Assembly: GCA_021805665.1 (NCBI GenBank)
Contig: JAJZEV010000286.1
Coordinates: 12,645 to 53,323 of the forward strand
Source: Pseudomonadota bacterium
GTDB taxonomy: Bacteria > Pseudomonadota > Alphaproteobacteria > Acetobacterales > Acetobacteraceae
Direction of reading: 5' to 3'
DNA: 40,679 bases
A program made the position numbers and the translations under genes. Position 1 is the first letter of the stretch, and the number at the start of each line of letters is the position of its first letter. Under the pieces are notes generated by a model. The model was not told the origin of the DNA and ran no database searches. It was given only the letters and a program-made list of their open reading frames with translations. This document shows positions 18,600 through 30,503 of the stretch, in pieces.

Positions 18600-18613
18600 T
18601 TGATCCAGATCAA
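18600..18613. promoter_or_regulatory. FNR/FixK-type binding site
   Basis: TTGATCCAGATCAA is a perfect match to TTGAT-N4-ATCAA, the consensus of FNR, FnrL and FixK oxygen-responsive regulators. Its centre is about 88 bases from the desaturase-like ATG and 245 bases from the rpsF ATG. A similar spacing is seen for the second perfect box upstream of hemA. Confidence 0.75.
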
Positions 18614-18784
18614 CCAGCCGATCACGCTTGGGTTAAGGTCATGGTTGGATAACGGTGTTGTCAGATGACGCGGCTATCCGGCCGACGGTGCCGCCCTGGC
18701 GCTTGCGTTGTTGCATTCCACCCCGATCCATGCTTCAAGCCCGCGCTTCCCTGCCGGGTGCGACGGCATCGCGCCCGGCTATGC

Positions 18785-23942: not shown

Positions 23943-25313
23943 CTATTGTTTAGGCAGCGAGTCGATCGCCGACTGGATCATCTTGGCGTCGTCGGTTCCG
24001 GGGGGGATTTTGGTCAGCAGCCTGGTCCAGTATTGCCGCCCGTCATCCGGATGACCGTCCTGTGCCGCGGCCAGGCCCAGATACCACAGCACCAGGGGCT
24101 GATCGGGTGTGCTCTGCTCGATCTGCTTCAGCAGCGTCACGACGCGGGCGGGCAGTTTCTCGGACGGAGTTTGGTCAGTCAGCAGTGCGCGGACTTCCCG
24201 CAGCGGGATGGAGGTATCGTCGGGCTTCAGCTTCGCGGCATGGTCGAACGCGTCGGCCGCTTTATCCGGCTGGTGCAGTACGGCGTAGGCTTGGCCAAGA
24301 CGCAGCCATCCGTCCAGGTTCCCGGGGTCGGCGGCCTGCTTCGCGGCCAACTGCGCCACCATGCCCTGGATCATTGCCGCCCTGTCTGCCTCGGACATGT
24401 TCGCGGCGTTGGCGATCGCGTTCGCGTCCGGGCCGGGTGCCGGTGCCGGGGTGGTGCCCCTTGCCAGTTCGGGGACCGGAATTCCGGCCGACCGAGCGGC
24501 CTCGGCGATTTTGAGGGCAAGCTGCGGGCGCAATGGCGAGTCTGACGGCTGTTCCGCCAGCAGCGCCTGGAACCCGTCGATGGCCTTTTGCGGTTCGCCC
24601 GCCTGCATCGCGGCGACGGCTTCGTAATAGCGGGCCAGACCATTGGCCGGATCGGCGGCCAGCACCTGCTTTAGTGCCGCCTCGGCGGCGGGCGTGACCG
24701 TGCCGCCGGCTTGCAGCACCAGAATCTCGGCATGGTCGGCCAGTACGTCCGGGTCGTTCTGGCCCAGGGCGATGGCGTGGCGATAGGCTTCCTCGGCCTT
24801 GTCATACTGGTTGAGCATCGCGAGGTTGTGGCCGTACTGAACCCAGGCGGCACCATCCGAAGGGTTCTGTTGCAGTTTCGCCGCCAGTGCCGCGGTTGCG
24901 GTGTCCAGGGCAGCGGCGGGGTCGTCAACCGACGCCGACGCCGGGCGGCCGGCGAACGGCACGTCCGGGACCTCGGGCGCGCCTAAACGCAGATAGGTGG
25001 CCACGGACCCGGCGGCGACGACGAGGAATACCAGCAGCGCCAGCACCGGACTGCGCGACAGGCGCGGCGGGGAGGCAGGCAGCTTGTCGCTGGCGAGCAG
25101 GCGGCGCTGGATTTCCAGTCTGGCGGCGTCGGCCTCCTGGCCGGTGATGACACCGCGGGCGATATCGCGGTCCAGCTCCCTCAGTTGGTCGCGATAAACC
25201 GCCTGGTCGAAGCTGCCGCGCGACGCGACCGGGCGGCCGCCGCGCAGCAGCGGTGCCAAGATCGGCAGCAGGGCGCCGAAGGCCAGCAACGCCAGTAGAA
25301 ATGGCAGGATCAA
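23943..25313 (-). CDS. ccmI: Cytochrome c maturation protein CcmI (TPR)
   Basis: 456-residue apocytochrome chaperone of System I. The N-terminus is a membrane region (ILPFLLALLAFGALLPILAP), then the CcmI signature FDQAVYRDQLRELDRDIARG with IQRRLLAS, a second membrane helix (VLALLVFLVVAAGSVATYL), and several TPR repeats (WVQYGHNLAMLNQYDKAEEAY; WLRLGQAYAVLHQPDKAADAF). It would hold apocytochrome c for CcmF/CcmH. No suitable ATG is present: the start is probably TTG, overlapping the ccmH stop (TTGA), with GAGGA eight bases upstream. Last gene of the block; a 13-bp hairpin follows. Confidence 0.92.
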   Translation of the reverse strand: MILPFLLALLAFGALLPILAPLLRGGRPVASRGSFDQAVYRDQLRELDRDIARGVITGQEADAARLEIQRRLLASDKLPASPPRLSRSPVLALLVFLVVAAGSVATYLRLGAPEVPDVPFAGRPASASVDDPAAALDTATAALAAKLQQNPSDGAAWVQYGHNLAMLNQYDKAEEAYRHAIALGQNDPDVLADHAEILVLQAGGTVTPAAEAALKQVLAADPANGLARYYEAVAAMQAGEPQKAIDGFQALLAEQPSDSPLRPQLALKIAEAARSAGIPVPELARGTTPAPAPGPDANAIANAANMSEADRAAMIQGMVAQLAAKQAADPGNLDGWLRLGQAYAVLHQPDKAADAFDHAAKLKPDDTSIPLREVRALLTDQTPSEKLPARVVTLLKQIEQSTPDQPLVLWYLGLAAAQDGHPDDGRQYWTRLLTKIPPGTDDAKMIQSAIDSLPKQ

Positions 25314-25777
25314 GCGTCGTTTCCTCGGATCAGTCCATCCAGGCGCCGGGTTTCGTCGGCGCTGAGCGGCGTGGTTTCGGCGGGCGCTGACTGGCGGCGT
25401 TTCAGCCAGACCAGGGTGCCCAGCAGGCCGATCGCAAGCAGCGCCGGGGGACCGTACCACAGGACATAGGTTGCCGGCTCGACGGGCGGCTTCAACAGCA
25501 CGAAGGCGCCGTAACGATCGACCACGGCCTGGATGACCGCGGCGTTGGTGTTGCCGGCGGTCAGCCGTTCGCGCACGAACATGCGAATGTCGTGCGCCAG
25601 GTCGGCGCCGGATTCGTCGATCGATTCATTCTGGCACACCAGGCACCGAAGCTGGCTGCCGATCGCCCTGGCTCGGGATTCCAACGCCGGGTCGGCCAGA
25701 CGCTCCGCCGGTTCGACCGCCCGGGCGGCCACGGTGGTCAGCAGCAGCATCGCGAGCAGCAGAAGAAAGCGTCTCAT
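25310..25777 (-). CDS. ccmH: Cytochrome c maturation protein CcmH
   Basis: 155-residue thiol oxidoreductase that reduces the CXXCH motif of apocytochrome c before haem ligation. Signal peptide (residues 1-20), periplasmic domain with LRCLVCQNESI (Cys45, Cys48, the active pair), a C-terminal membrane helix (VLWYGPPALLAIGLLGTLVW) and a short cytoplasmic tail. It overlaps ccmG by an ATGA and ccmI by a TTGA. The length fits the short, CcmH-only form, with CcmI as a separate gene. Confidence 0.96.
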   Translation of the reverse strand: MRRFLLLLAMLLLTTVAARAVEPAERLADPALESRARAIGSQLRCLVCQNESIDESGADLAHDIRMFVRERLTAGNTNAAVIQAVVDRYGAFVLLKPPVEPATYVLWYGPPALLAIGLLGTLVWLKRRQSAPAETTPLSADETRRLDGLIRGNDA

Positions 25778-26310
25778 GACCGGTCGAGTTGCTTGAGCAG
25801 CGGGAGAAGTTCCTTCTCCACCGACTCGGCCGTCAGTGGGCCGACAAATCGCTTCTGGATGACGCCCTTGCTGTCGATGACATAGGTTTCCGGTACGCCA
25901 TAGACGCCGAAGTCAAGGCCGACCCGGCCGTCCTGGTCGATGCCGACCTGGCGGTATGGGTCGCCGAAGCTGGCCAGCAGGCGGCTGGAGTCGGCGGGTT
26001 TGTCCTTATAGGCGATGCCATACAGCGGGATGTGGTTTTCGGACGCCAGACGCATCAGCAGGGGATGCTCCACCCGGCACGGCACGCACCAGGAGGCAAA
26101 GAAATTCAGCACGAAGGGATGGCCCTTCAGCGCGTCCAGCGCCAGCGGCTTGGGATCGTCCAGGCCGGCCAGATCGAACGAAGGGGCCGGCTTGTCGATC
26201 ATCACGGACGGCAGTTCGCGGACATCCCGGGCGGGACGCAAGGCGACGAGGAAATAGCCAGCCAAGCCCAGGAACAGAACCAGCGGCAGCAGATAGAACA
26301 GTCGTTTCAT
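25774..26310 (-). CDS. ccmG: Thiol:disulfide interchange protein CcmG/DsbE
   Basis: 178-residue membrane-anchored thioredoxin-like protein that passes reductant to CcmH or apocytochrome. N-terminal anchor helix (LFYLLPLVLFLGLAGYFLV), active site WCVPC (Cys75, Cys78) in FASWCVPCRVEHP, and cis-Pro loop GVPETYVID. The start follows GGAGA at the end of ccmF, two bases behind its stop; the upstream in-frame extension lies inside ccmF and was not used. Its ATGA overlap with ccmH shows tight translational coupling. Confidence 0.96.
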   Translation of the reverse strand: MKRLFYLLPLVLFLGLAGYFLVALRPARDVRELPSVMIDKPAPSFDLAGLDDPKPLALDALKGHPFVLNFFASWCVPCRVEHPLLMRLASENHIPLYGIAYKDKPADSSRLLASFGDPYRQVGIDQDGRVGLDFGVYGVPETYVIDSKGVIQKRFVGPLTAESVEKELLPLLKQLDRS

Positions 26311-26312
26311 CG

Positions 26313-28304
26313 TTATTCTCCGGCGGCTGGCGCGGGCTCCGCCATGGCACGACGGACAGACCGAGCGGCGGCGCCGACGCGCCAGCGGCGATCGCTGAGA
26401 CTGACGACGCCGCCGAATGCCATGATGACGCAGCCGATCCAGATCCAGGGGACCAACGGCTTCCAGTAAACCCGGACGGTCCAATCCCCTTGGGTGTCGG
26501 ATTCACCCAGCGCCACATACAGGTCGGTCAAGAAGTTGGTGCGGATCGAGGTTTCGCTGGTGGTCTGCTTTTGCAGCGGGAAGAACCGCCGTTCGGGGTG
26601 CATGACCTTCACCAACTGGCCGTCCCGGGTAACACGGATGGCAGCGTCGTCAGCCACGAAGTTCGGGCCGGGGATGCGGGTGACGCTGTCCAGGGTCAGC
26701 TCGTAACCGGCGATGGCGATGGTGCCGCCGGGTTTCAGGATTTCGATGGCTTCCTTGTCCCAGGCGGAGGCAGCGAAGCCGGCGACCGAGACCGCCAGCC
26801 CGAAATGGGCGAACGACATACCATAGGCGGATCGCGGCAAACGGATTGCCCGCCGGAGGCTGTCGCCCAACGGCACCCGGAACAGACGCACGCGTTCGGC
26901 GACTTCGGTCAGCACCGCGGACCCCAGCCAAGCCGCCAGACCGAGGCCGAGCACCGCCAGGACCGGCCCGCCATAGGTCAGGTAGAACATCGCCAGCAGC
27001 ACCAGGGCGGTGGCGATATAGGCCACCCACAGCCGTTGCAGCGCGCCCAGCAGGTCGCCGCGCTTCCAGGCCAGCATCGGGCCGATGCCCACGGCGATAA
27101 TCATCGGCACCATCATCGGTGCGAAGGTGCGGTTGAAGAACGGGAACCCGACCGACAGTTTCGGCCCGCCCATCGCGTCCAGGAACAGCGGGTACAGCGT
27201 GCCCAGGAACACCGTCGCGCAACCGCAGGACAGCAGCACGTTGTTCAGCACCAACGCACCCTCTCGCGAGATCGGCGCGAACAGACCCCCGCCTTTCAGC
27301 GACGGGGCTCGGATGGCATACAGCGTCAGCGATCCGCCGATGGCGGCGACCAGCAGCAGCAGGATAAAGGTGCCGCGTTCGGGATCGGTGGCGAAGGCAT
27401 GCACCGACGTCAGCACGCCGGAGCGGACCAGGAACGTGCCCACCAGGGACAGCGAGAAGGTGACGATCGCCAGCAGGATGGTCCAGGATTTCAGTGTGTC
27501 GCGCTTTTCCACCACGATGGACGAATGGATCAGCGCGGTGCCGACCAGCCAGGGCATGAAACTGGCGTTTTCGACCGGATCCCAGAACCACCAGCCGCCC
27601 CAGCCCAGCGTGTAGTAGGCCCACCAGGAACCCATCGCGATGCCGATGGTCAGGGCACACCACGATGCCAGCGTCCATGGGCGGACCCAGCGTGCCCAGG
27701 CGGCATCGACCCGGCCCTCGATCAGCGCGGCGACAGCGAAGGCGAAGGCGACCGAAAAGCCGACATAGCCGAGGTAAAGGAACGGCGGATGGAAAGCGAG
27801 CCCGGGGTCCTGCAGCACCGGATTCAGCCCGTTGCCGTTCGCCGCGGCAGGGAACGTGCGCAGAAACGGGTTGGAGGTCAGCAGAATGAACAGCAGGAAC
27901 CCGACGGCGATCATGCCCTGAACCGCCAGGACGCGGGCGCGCAGGGCAGGGGGCAGGTTATCGCTGAACAGGGCCACCGCCGCCGCGCACAGCGACAGCA
28001 TGAAGACCCACAGCAGCATGGAGCCTTCGTGGTTACCCCAGACGCCGGTGATCTTATACAGCAGCGGCTTGTCGGTGTGGCTGTTCTCGATGACGTTGAT
28101 CACGGTGAAGTCGGAGGTGACATATGCGTGCATCAGCGACAGCATCGCCAGCGCCGTCAGGGCGAAACCCGTCAGCGCGCAAGACCGCCCGACCGCCATC
28201 CATCCGACATGACGCCGCGCCGCGCCGATCATCGGCACGGTTGACTGTATCGCTGCGACGAACAGCGCAAGGATCAGCGCGAAGTGACCCAGTTCAGTGA
28301 TCAT
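26313..28304 (-). CDS. ccmF: Haem lyase CcmF
   Basis: 663-residue polytopic membrane protein that catalyses haem attachment to apocytochrome c. The haem-handling WWD segment TLGWGGWWFWDPVENASFMPW lies in the N-terminal half, preceded by WGNHEGSMLLW and FHPPFLYLGYVG. The large periplasmic loop near the C-terminus (IAGYELTLDSVTRIPGPNF and beyond) is typical. In most System I operons ccmE, or ccmE and other genes, precede ccmF; here the gene directly upstream is hemA, 45 bases away. ccmA-E must be elsewhere. Confidence 0.97.
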   Translation of the reverse strand: MITELGHFALILALFVAAIQSTVPMIGAARRHVGWMAVGRSCALTGFALTALAMLSLMHAYVTSDFTVINVIENSHTDKPLLYKITGVWGNHEGSMLLWVFMLSLCAAAVALFSDNLPPALRARVLAVQGMIAVGFLLFILLTSNPFLRTFPAAANGNGLNPVLQDPGLAFHPPFLYLGYVGFSVAFAFAVAALIEGRVDAAWARWVRPWTLASWCALTIGIAMGSWWAYYTLGWGGWWFWDPVENASFMPWLVGTALIHSSIVVEKRDTLKSWTILLAIVTFSLSLVGTFLVRSGVLTSVHAFATDPERGTFILLLLVAAIGGSLTLYAIRAPSLKGGGLFAPISREGALVLNNVLLSCGCATVFLGTLYPLFLDAMGGPKLSVGFPFFNRTFAPMMVPMIIAVGIGPMLAWKRGDLLGALQRLWVAYIATALVLLAMFYLTYGGPVLAVLGLGLAAWLGSAVLTEVAERVRLFRVPLGDSLRRAIRLPRSAYGMSFAHFGLAVSVAGFAASAWDKEAIEILKPGGTIAIAGYELTLDSVTRIPGPNFVADDAAIRVTRDGQLVKVMHPERRFFPLQKQTTSETSIRTNFLTDLYVALGESDTQGDWTVRVYWKPLVPWIWIGCVIMAFGGVVSLSDRRWRVGAAARSVRRAMAEPAPAAGE

Positions 28305-28349
28305 CGGTACGCGTGCCCCAATCGGTTGAAAGGCGGACGCGAGGCTCTA

Positions 28350-29567
28350 TCACGCTGCCCTGCGCCGCTCCAGCGGGATGATCGCCTGCAACGCCGCGAC
28401 CAGTTCGTCCATCATCGCATCGGTGTGCAGCGGGCCGGGCGTGAAGCGCAGGCGTTCCTCGCCGCGCGGAACCGTTGGGTAGTTGATCGGGGTGGCATAC
28501 ATGCCAAATTCGTTCAGCAGACGCTGGCTGACGTCCATGCACAACGACGCCTCGCCGATGTGCAGCGGCACGATATGGCTGACGGACTCGATGCGCGGCA
28601 GTCCGGCTTCGTCGAAGCGGGCTTTCAGGGTCGCGGCCCGTTCGAACAGTTTTGCCCGGCGGGCATGGTCCTGGCGCACATGGCGCACGCTGGCCAGCGC
28701 GGCGGCGGCGGTCATCGGCGGCAGAGAGGTGGTGAAGATGAAGCCGGGCGCGGTGGAACGGATGAAATCGACCACGTCGGCATCGCCGGTTATGTAGCCG
28801 CCGTGGCAGCCATAAGCCTTGGCGAGCGTGCCCTCGATAATATCGACACGGTGGGCGACGCCGTCGCGTTCCGACACGCCGCCGCCGCTTGGGCCGTACA
28901 TGCCGACGGCATGAACCTCATCCAGGTAGGTCATCGCGTCGTATTTGTCGGCCAGATCGCAGATCGCGGCGATTGGCGCGATGTCGGCATCCATCGAATA
29001 GACGGATTCAAAGGCGATCAGCTTCGGCGCGCCCGCCGGGGATGCGCGCAGCAGCGATTCCAAATGCGCCATGTCGTTGTGGCGGAAGATGCTGACCACG
29101 CCGCGCGAGCCCTTGATGCCGGCGATCATCGACGCGTGGTTCTTGGAGTCGGAAAACACCTGCCACGGATGGTCGGGGCCGTGCGGGAAGCTGTTCAGGA
29201 TGGTGGACAATGCCGCCTGATTGGAAACGAAGCCGGAGGTGAACAGCAAGCCGGCCTGTTTGCCGTGCAGGCTGGCGAGTTCCGCCTCCAGTTCGTCATG
29301 GACCGGGCTGGTGCCACTGATGTTACGGGTGCCGCCGGCCCCGGCGCCCATGGTTTGGGCGGCTTCGCATGCCGCGTTGACCGGAACCGGATGGCCGCCC
29401 ATCGCCAGATAATCGTTCGACGACCAGACCAGCACCCGCGTCCCGTCCGGGCGCAGATAGTAAGGGAAACCGTCAGCCCGCTTCTGCAGCGGGGTGAATA
29501 TCCGGTAACGTCCCTGGTCGCGGATCGAATCGAGGGAACGCCGGCAGTGTTCTTTGAACGCGGTCAT
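28350..29567 (-). CDS. hemA: 5-aminolevulinate synthase
   Basis: 405-residue PLP enzyme that condenses succinyl-CoA and glycine to 5-aminolevulinate, the first committed step of haem synthesis in alphaproteobacteria. Seen: [38 protein letters not shown] with the PLP aspartate, and [15 protein letters not shown], which carries the Schiff-base Lys250. Length matches the family (about 400-405). Directly upstream of ccmF in the same direction, so haem precursor synthesis and cytochrome c haem ligation may share a transcript. An FNR/FixK-type box lies about 83 bases upstream of its ATG. Confidence 0.97.
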
Positions 29568-29629
29568 TCTGTAGGAAGCCTTCAGCTCGCCAATCCGGTG
29601 AAAACGTCGTTAACCCTTGTCGCAGAACG

Positions 29630-29657
29630 ATTACAGGGAACCATTGATCCGTATCAA
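29630..29657 (-). promoter_or_regulatory. Candidate hemA promoter overlapping the FNR box
   Basis: Minus-strand TTGATA (29657-29652) and TGTAAT (29635-29630) are separated by 16 bases and each match the sigma70 hexamers at five of six positions. The -35 hexamer is the first half of the FNR box. If this is the real promoter, the bound regulator would block it; a class II activated start further downstream is the alternative. Confidence 0.45.
29644..29657. promoter_or_regulatory. FNR/FixK-type binding site upstream of hemA
   Basis: TTGATCCGTATCAA, a perfect match to TTGAT-N4-ATCAA, centred about 83 bases from the hemA ATG and 235 bases from the divergent gene. Control of hemA by FnrL/FixK-like regulators is known in other alphaproteobacteria. 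Confidence 0.8.
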
Positions 29658-29885
29658 TCCTGTTCGCTTGGCTTGCCCGCCCCATTCAGCGCCAACATGC
29701 GCCGTTTGCGCGTTTCGTCAAAGGGGGCATCGCTGTCGATGGACAGGGGTTAATCATCCGAACCGGGGGCGCCCGATGGGCGCGGGGCAGGCATGCCGCC
29801 GCCCTGCTTTGCAACCGGGCGCGGCGATGGCATAGGAAAATGTTGCATCGCAATATTTGACCACCATTTTTGCCAGGAGCCGCGC

Positions 29886-30503
29886 ATGCCGTTGAGCCAG
29901 CCCGTCCCCCGCGAGCGTTCCCACACGCGTGCCATCGAGATCGCCGGCTACCGCCGGGTGGATGGGCTTTATGACATCGAGGCGCATCTGACGGACTGCA
30001 AGACATTCGGGCAGACCAATTTCGACCGGGGATACATCGAGGCGGGGGAACCGATCCACGACATGTGGATGCGCCTGACCCTGGACGACACGATGCATAT
30101 CCGCGCTGTCGAGGCGGTCAGCGACAAGACTCCATATCGGCTTTGTCCGACCGCCGCGCCGAATTTTACCCGGCTGGTGGGGATGCAGATCAGGCCGGGC
30201 TTCCTGCGGGATGCGACGCACAAGGTGGGCGGGACGGTCGGCTGCACGCATCTGCGGGAACTGCTGCAGCAAATGGCGACCACGGCGTTCCAGACGATCA
30301 ATGCCGCCAAGGCCCGTCACGAACTGGCGGCGGAGGGCGTGAAGGACGAAACCCCCGGCAGCGATGTGCTGGACAGGCGCATTACCGAGAAGTGGGACGG
30401 TGGGCGGAAGATACTGAACACCTGCCTTGCGTATGACGAAAAAGGCCCGCTGGTGCAGCGCCGCTGGCCGCATCTGTTCACCGGGGCGGACGCGGCTGAG
30501 TAA
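29886..30503 (+). CDS. DUF2889 domain protein
   Basis: 205-residue protein with RERSHTRAIEIAGYRRVDGLYDIEAHLTDCK, then PGFLRDATHKVGGTVGCTHLRELL near the middle, the pattern of the DUF2889 family. The function is unknown to me; family members are cytoplasmic and widespread in beta- and alphaproteobacteria. The chosen ATG has AGGAG six bases upstream; a longer in-frame opening has no such site. Divergent from hemA and converging on the glycan gene at 30521. Confidence 0.85.
   Translation: MPLSQPVPRERSHTRAIEIAGYRRVDGLYDIEAHLTDCKTFGQTNFDRGYIEAGEPIHDMWMRLTLDDTMHIRAVEAVSDKTPYRLCPTAAPNFTRLVGMQIRPGFLRDATHKVGGTVGCTHLRELLQQMATTAFQTINAAKARHELAAEGVKDETPGSDVLDRRITEKWDGGRKILNTCLAYDEKGPLVQRRWPHLFTGADAAE

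Follow-up and report, generated by a model that had tools for sequence, protein, structure and literature searches.

A conserved FNR/FixK box upstream of hemA in an Acetobacteraceae clade and its possible role in oxygen control of haem and cytochrome c genes

Why should the gene for 5-aminolevulinate synthase, followed by genes for cytochrome c maturation, carry an FNR/FixK box upstream, and would a regulator bound there raise or lower expression? The question arose from a 40,679-nucleotide stretch of an Acetobacteraceae genome (the window), in which a first reading of the letters (the original prediction) had described a perfect TTGAT-CCGT-ATCAA box upstream of hemA and, on the minus strand, a TTGATA-16-TGTAAT promoter. 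Both read as described. Coordinates are collected in Table 1.

Table 1. Features around the hemA box (positions within the window)
Feature	Position	Strand	Basis or remark
hemA, 5-aminolevulinate synthase, 405 aa	28350..29567	-	NCBIfam TIGR01821, 545.9 bits, cut-off 338.55
ccmF, 45 nt after hemA	26313..28304	-	Pfam CcmF_C, Cytochrom_C_asm
ccmG-like thioredoxin-fold protein	25774..26313	-	Pfam Redoxin
ccmH	25310..25777	-	Pfam CcmH
ccmI-like TPR protein (start codon uncertain)	23943..25460	-	Pfam TPR_CcmH_CycH
Divergent DUF2889 gene	29886..30503	+	Pfam PF11136
FNR/FixK box, perfect palindrome TTGATCCGTATCAA (+) / TTGATACGGATCAA (-)	29644..29657	.	Sequence; conservation
TTGATA, half-box, candidate -35 of P2	29652..29657	-	Function inferred
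TGTAAT, originally predicted -10 (spacer 16), no A at position 2	29630..29635	-	Pair 1.8 bits
TAATCG, alternative P2 -10 (spacer 18)	29628..29633	-	Pair 2.9 bits in this genome
P1 -35, TTGACG	29716..29721	-	Genus promoter model
P1 -10, CATGTT	29694..29699	-	Genus promoter model
GACAAG, weak candidate -10 at class II spacing (22 nt from box)	29616..29621	-	

Occurrence and conservation of the box

The box is a perfect TTGAT-N4-ATCAA palindrome, the form of an FNR/FixK site, and begins 90 nt upstream of the hemA ATG. It is one of two perfect boxes in the window, where 15 matches with at most two mismatches were counted against a mean of 7.4 in shuffled sequences, a number reached in none of 100 shuffles. 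The genome search proposed with the original prediction gave 15 perfect boxes, compared with 0.5 expected from the base composition of the window and none for the backwards pattern; that number is best taken as a maximum for real sites, since some are intragenic (e.g. L006) and the one at hemN enters twice, from two near-duplicate contigs.

Relatives were drawn from named genomes, the closest being Acetobacteraceae, Rhodopila and Acidisphaera records, and from further genomes of the same genus, 5 of 33 of which were without a full-length close hemA (G004, G019, G023, G024, G026). Removal of duplicates left 29 close loci, defined by HemA identity of 79% or more, 28 of them with enough upstream DNA for box counts (L117/L033, with only 34 bp, was excluded); one of the 28, from a named MAG (L034), was placed from HemA identity alone. 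Loss of the box in close relatives, named beforehand as an outcome that would speak against the prediction, did not occur. In the 260 bp preceding hemA, 24/28 close and 3/62 more distant loci carry a box when up to one mismatch is allowed, and 14/28 and 2/62 carry a perfect one. With two mismatches allowed the counts were 27/28 and 20/62, and because so many distant loci match, this last class is weak evidence. The backwards pattern, used as a control at up to one mismatch, matched 1/28 close loci. The site is thus kept, but its place shifts: the distance from box to ATG ranges from -49 to -238.

Conservation is also visible by column in the near group (class A, L096-L105, 10 hemA loci). Among eight representatives (L097 and L104 were left out), 8 of the 10 half-site columns are invariant and the other two reach 6/8 and 7/8, and only 2 of the 80 columns upstream of the box reach 7/8. 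A fortuitous palindrome with no role at hemA would agree with the perfect boxes found within genes and with the two-mismatch matches at distant loci, but the column pattern and the difference between close and distant loci at one mismatch make it very improbable. Judged by these comparisons, the box at hemA is not a chance occurrence. Rhodopila globiformis DSM 161 and Acidisphaera sp. S103 carry the locus, which can be tested in them; neither is labelled a metagenome assembly.

Linkage of haem and cytochrome c genes is specific to the clade. Same-strand adjacency of hemA and ccmF (28304-28350 here) was seen at 23/29 close loci and 0/18 distant loci among those examined (L016-L050 and L096-L125), and at one of the six close loci where ccmF is not next, the contig ends 46 bp after hemA. 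No terminator or promoter was found between hemA and ccmF (28200-28420). Oxygen control of haem synthesis, as originally proposed, is probable in view of the conserved FNR/FixK box before hemA. Its extension through hemA to ccmFGHI, part of the same proposal, is probable as well, given the short gap to ccmF, the lack of a detectable signal between the genes and the adjacency kept among close relatives.

Two further ideas were rejected. Photosynthesis as the reason for hemA control was set aside, no reaction-centre match (PF00124) being found in the genome, which is 94.5% complete. A leader peptide starting from the edge of the box was dropped on inspection by eye: an ATG is present there in several relatives, but not in L100 and L105.

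Promoters and spacing at the box

A generic sigma-70 scan of 29300-29900, with a scanner that requires A at position 2 of the -10 element, returned no promoter; it also misses P1, ranked first below. Because plain TATAAT counting ignores a missing A, we built a promoter model for the genus from 30 leaders of 6S RNA and 22 of RNase P. For the latter, 28 of the 30 loci served as input (without L253 and L254), and six whose match does not start at base 1 (L238, L239, L242, L243, L246 and L248) were dropped. The model has a -35 element TTG(A/C)C(C/G) or TTGCTT-like, 16-18 nt of spacer and a -10 element of (T/C)A followed mostly by (A/T/C)(G/A)T(T/C/A). As A at position 2 was imposed when picking training hexamers, it cannot prove that this A is always needed.

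By this model the best promoter upstream of hemA is P1, TTGACG-16-CATGTT, at 15.7 bits, compared with 12.1 bits for the 95th percentile of 40 shuffles. The pair TTGATA-16-TGTAAT scores 1.8 bits, and a role as the main promoter is not supported for it. Transcription from P1 would start near 29686, which would put the box centre near +36. The P1 pattern was found in 12/28 close relatives and in 8/10 class A sequences; it is absent in L101 and L103, and its score falls below the 95th percentile of the locus's own shuffles in L104, L106 and L110. In the 11 loci with both elements, the inferred P1 start precedes the box centre by 21.5 to 59.5 bp, and this variable distance argues against activation of P1.

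The idea that half of the box serves as a -35 element, weak as the pair is here, fares better in relatives: in ten near relatives a -10-like element stands at a constant short distance, 8-10 nt, from the box. It may belong to a second promoter, P2, whose start in this genome would be at about 29620-29622. Plain TATAAT counting over class A favours the originally chosen hexamer (mean 3.4/6 at 8 nt). The alternative with an 18-nt spacer (TTGATA-TAATCG type) keeps the TA of TAATCG in 9/10 class A sequences and scores up to 11.6 bits in relative L102. Binding over a promoter or a transcription start is one way in which FNR can repress.

The spacing was compared with that at hemN and ccoN, usual FNR/FixK targets. 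At hemN a box was found in 23/24 loci (L165-L188), the exception, L176, being explained by a partial match that starts at residue 172. At ccoN a box with at most one mismatch lies 233-347 nt upstream in all 26 loci analysed (L288-L313; 26 of 30 were used, the partial L314-L317 being left out). Both genes have a -10-like signal 21-24 nt from the box, strong at hemN (genus-model p 0.0001 for 11 near and 0.018 for 12 far sequences) and, by the genus model, at ccoN (p <0.00005; TATAAT count p 0.076), where these p-values, like the others for spacing and for DUF2889 below, treat related sequences as independent. No -10-like signal was found at 8-10 nt at hemN (23 loci) or ccoN (26 loci).

At class A hemA (10 sequences) a -10-like signal does lie 8-10 nt from the box (model p 0.00025, TATAAT p <0.00005), with a low score in this genome; at an FNR-repressed promoter the box would be expected over the core promoter or start region, and this spacing may place it there; a weak class II signal at 21-24 nt is present too (p about 0.045 by either score). 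A fixed GTA..C element occupies positions 9-14 nt from the box. Thirteen other hemA sequences have a signal at 21-24 nt (TATAAT p 0.006, model p 0.056) and none at 8-10 nt. In four more (class B: L114, L118, L119, L120) a TAAGGT-like hexamer of low score abuts the box; these were omitted from the hemA spacing tests because the ribosome-site region falls inside the tested range of positions.

These spacings bear on class II activation, which we regard as a serious possibility, at somewhat under even odds. FixK on the box would recruit RNA polymerase to a start near 29608 and hemA-ccm expression would rise at low oxygen, with P1 providing the aerobic basal level. Over 23 hemA sequences together, the signal at 21-24 nt is consistent with it (model p 0.011, TATAAT p 0.0014), as are L122/L123, where a box with two mismatches lies at -41.5 of TTGAGG-16-TAGGTC. 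At class A, however, the best hexamers at class II spacing, with scores of -2.9 to 1.3, do not exceed a best-of-8-windows null (mean 0.04), whereas those of near-clade hemN score 1.8 to 4.4, and class II activation leaves the fixed GTA..C element unexplained.

The symmetric site lies in an intergenic region common to hemA and the divergent DUF2889 gene, and in L109/L112 it is nearer the DUF2889 start. An operator serving that gene is extremely unlikely all the same and was dropped, since 27 sequences examined in the DUF2889 direction showed no -10 signal 21-24 nt from the box (p 0.82 and 0.51).

Two minor observations were made at the reference genes. In the far clade, no more than 46-53 nt separate the hemN box from the aligned start codon, and class II activation would therefore give a nearly leaderless mRNA. 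At ccoN the box is always followed by TG, and the palindrome is thus commonly extended there to CA...TG.

The candidate regulator

HTH_Crp_2 matches were found at nine places in the genome, five of them over the cut-off. A FixK-like protein of 237 aa (L126) carries the helix LGLTIETVSR; its closest solved structure is FixK2 (4i2o, E 3.1e-44), whose chain has the matching helix LGLTLETVSR. The best NCBIfam model is FixK (NF050806), and as the score of 217.8 bits is below the 300-bit equivalog cut-off, we call the protein FixK-like and do not assign it to the equivalog. An N-terminal Fe-S cysteine cluster (CxxC...C) was looked for in it and not found. A FixL-like kinase that matches the FixL heme domain (heme PAS, 1dp6, E 5.6e-50) and a FixJ-like response regulator with a GerE domain are encoded upstream of fixK and share its contig and strand; the fixK-like gene is thus linked to fixL and fixJ. 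From its helix and gene neighbourhood, a FixK-type protein is the likely binder of the box.

Use of the box by another CRP/FNR member answering a non-oxygen signal appears improbable. An ENLSR motif is present in the helix of L128, a second protein of the CRP family, and at 94.5% completeness an FnrL may be missing from the assembly. The FixK-like helix, however, matches that of FixK2 and recurs in the FnrL-type proteins of other subclades in which the box is kept.

Taking the best regulator match of each of 30 genomes, we counted 13 proteins of FixK type, which lack the N-terminal cysteine cluster, and 8 of FnrL type; the pattern left 9 unclassified. The FnrL-type proteins have the cysteine cluster and the same helix start, both types reading LGLTIET(V/I)SR (L135-L147, L157-L164). 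All four class B genomes (G016, G028, G001, G003) have an FnrL-type best match. The oxygen sensor seems, on these patterns, to have been exchanged within the genus while the box was kept, although the distribution of the two types may simply follow phylogeny.

A box with one mismatch, TTGACCTGGATCAA, lies at the end of the fixJ-like gene (L284:6575-6588), about 500 bp before fixK, where it could possibly serve autoregulation.

Sign of control and known systems

We put at roughly 45% the reading in which the box is a FixK operator that ties hemA, and probably ccmFGHI, to low oxygen, its likeliest direct effect being a partial brake. The signal would pass from the FixL heme sensor through FixJ and FixK to the box. 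hemA would be driven mainly by the upstream housekeeping promoter P1, and perhaps also by P2; once bound to the box, FixK would overlie P2 and sit in the P1 leader. At low oxygen hemA-ccm would then be partly braked, ccm being reached by read-through, while hemN and ccoN would be switched on from the classic -41.5-like position.

What the computation establishes is the conserved box, the regulator genes, P1 as the highest-scoring promoter and the difference in -10 spacing; FixK binding, P2 activity, co-transcription and, most of all, the sign of control are inferred. Repression at hemA, as originally predicted, is geometrically plausible, but the class II -10 signal is present beside it. The weakness of P2 in this genome (1.8 or 2.9 bits), the weak class II signals at class A and in the 13 other hemA sequences, and the poor or missing P1 of five relatives all count against a brake. 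A dimer at about +36 may also be a poor roadblock. So, too, does precedent speak against it, the published hemA links considered here whose sign is stated being activation. Geometry in the clade leans to a brake and precedent to activation.

FnrL directly activates hemA in Rhodobacter sphaeroides, whereas R. capsulatus lacks this direct activation (PMC4634722). Another study of R. sphaeroides saw no significant change in hemA transcripts when fnrL was mutated and pointed to compensation, naming PrrA (PMC4263372). Our locus shares with that of R. sphaeroides the ALA synthase gene and a near-identical box (TTGATAAGGATCAA there), bound there by an FNR-family protein; it differs in that activation is reported there and the regulator is FnrL, whereas the candidate here is FixK-like. 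In Dinoroseobacter shibae, the anaerobically induced hemA3 has an FNR site 41.5 bp upstream of the start (PMC5398030), a favourable case for class II activation. That site too precedes an ALA synthase gene and is common to a divergent gene, but it is centred at -41.5, whereas here the best promoter lies upstream of the box. The order FixL-FixJ-FixK and the type of box are alike in Bradyrhizobium diazoefficiens FixLJ-FixK2 (PMC6515984, PMC9104804) and Rhodopseudomonas palustris FixK (PMC13327599). In the former hemA mRNA rises in microoxia with HemA protein constant (PMC6515984), and in the latter haem genes are under positive FixK regulation (PMC13327599), which again favours class II activation; the effect in both is positive, unlike the brake proposed here. 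A search of open-licence literature for Acetobacteraceae, FixK and hemA together found nothing, and the paper found for Rhodopila with FixK names Rhodopila once, in a FixLJ comparison.

As FNR/FixK control of ALA synthase is already known, the link itself adds a new taxon, and the geometry at hemA is perhaps a variant of that control. If the brake is true, a conserved operator changes sign by shifting relative to the promoter, along with an exchange of its regulator, and one oxygen signal governs both haem supply and cytochrome c maturation. The full picture strikes us as rather doubtful: a FixK/FNR-hemA link kept within one genus while the sign flips (activation at -41.5 in L122/L123, a brake over promoter or leader elsewhere), the sensor is swapped between FixLJ-FixK and a cysteine-cluster FnrL with one recognition helix, and cytochrome c maturation stands in the same operon.

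Two further points were noted in passing. Two contigs (L001 and L015; contigs C26 and C336 of G000) carry slightly different copies of the hemN upstream region, a doubling that is probably strain variation in the assembly. The second perfect box of the window, TTGATCCAGATCAA at 18600-18613, lies between a fatty-acid-hydroxylase gene and a gene that resembles rpsF by eye; 20 nt past it on the plus strand is a TAAGGT hexamer (18634-18639), near class II spacing.
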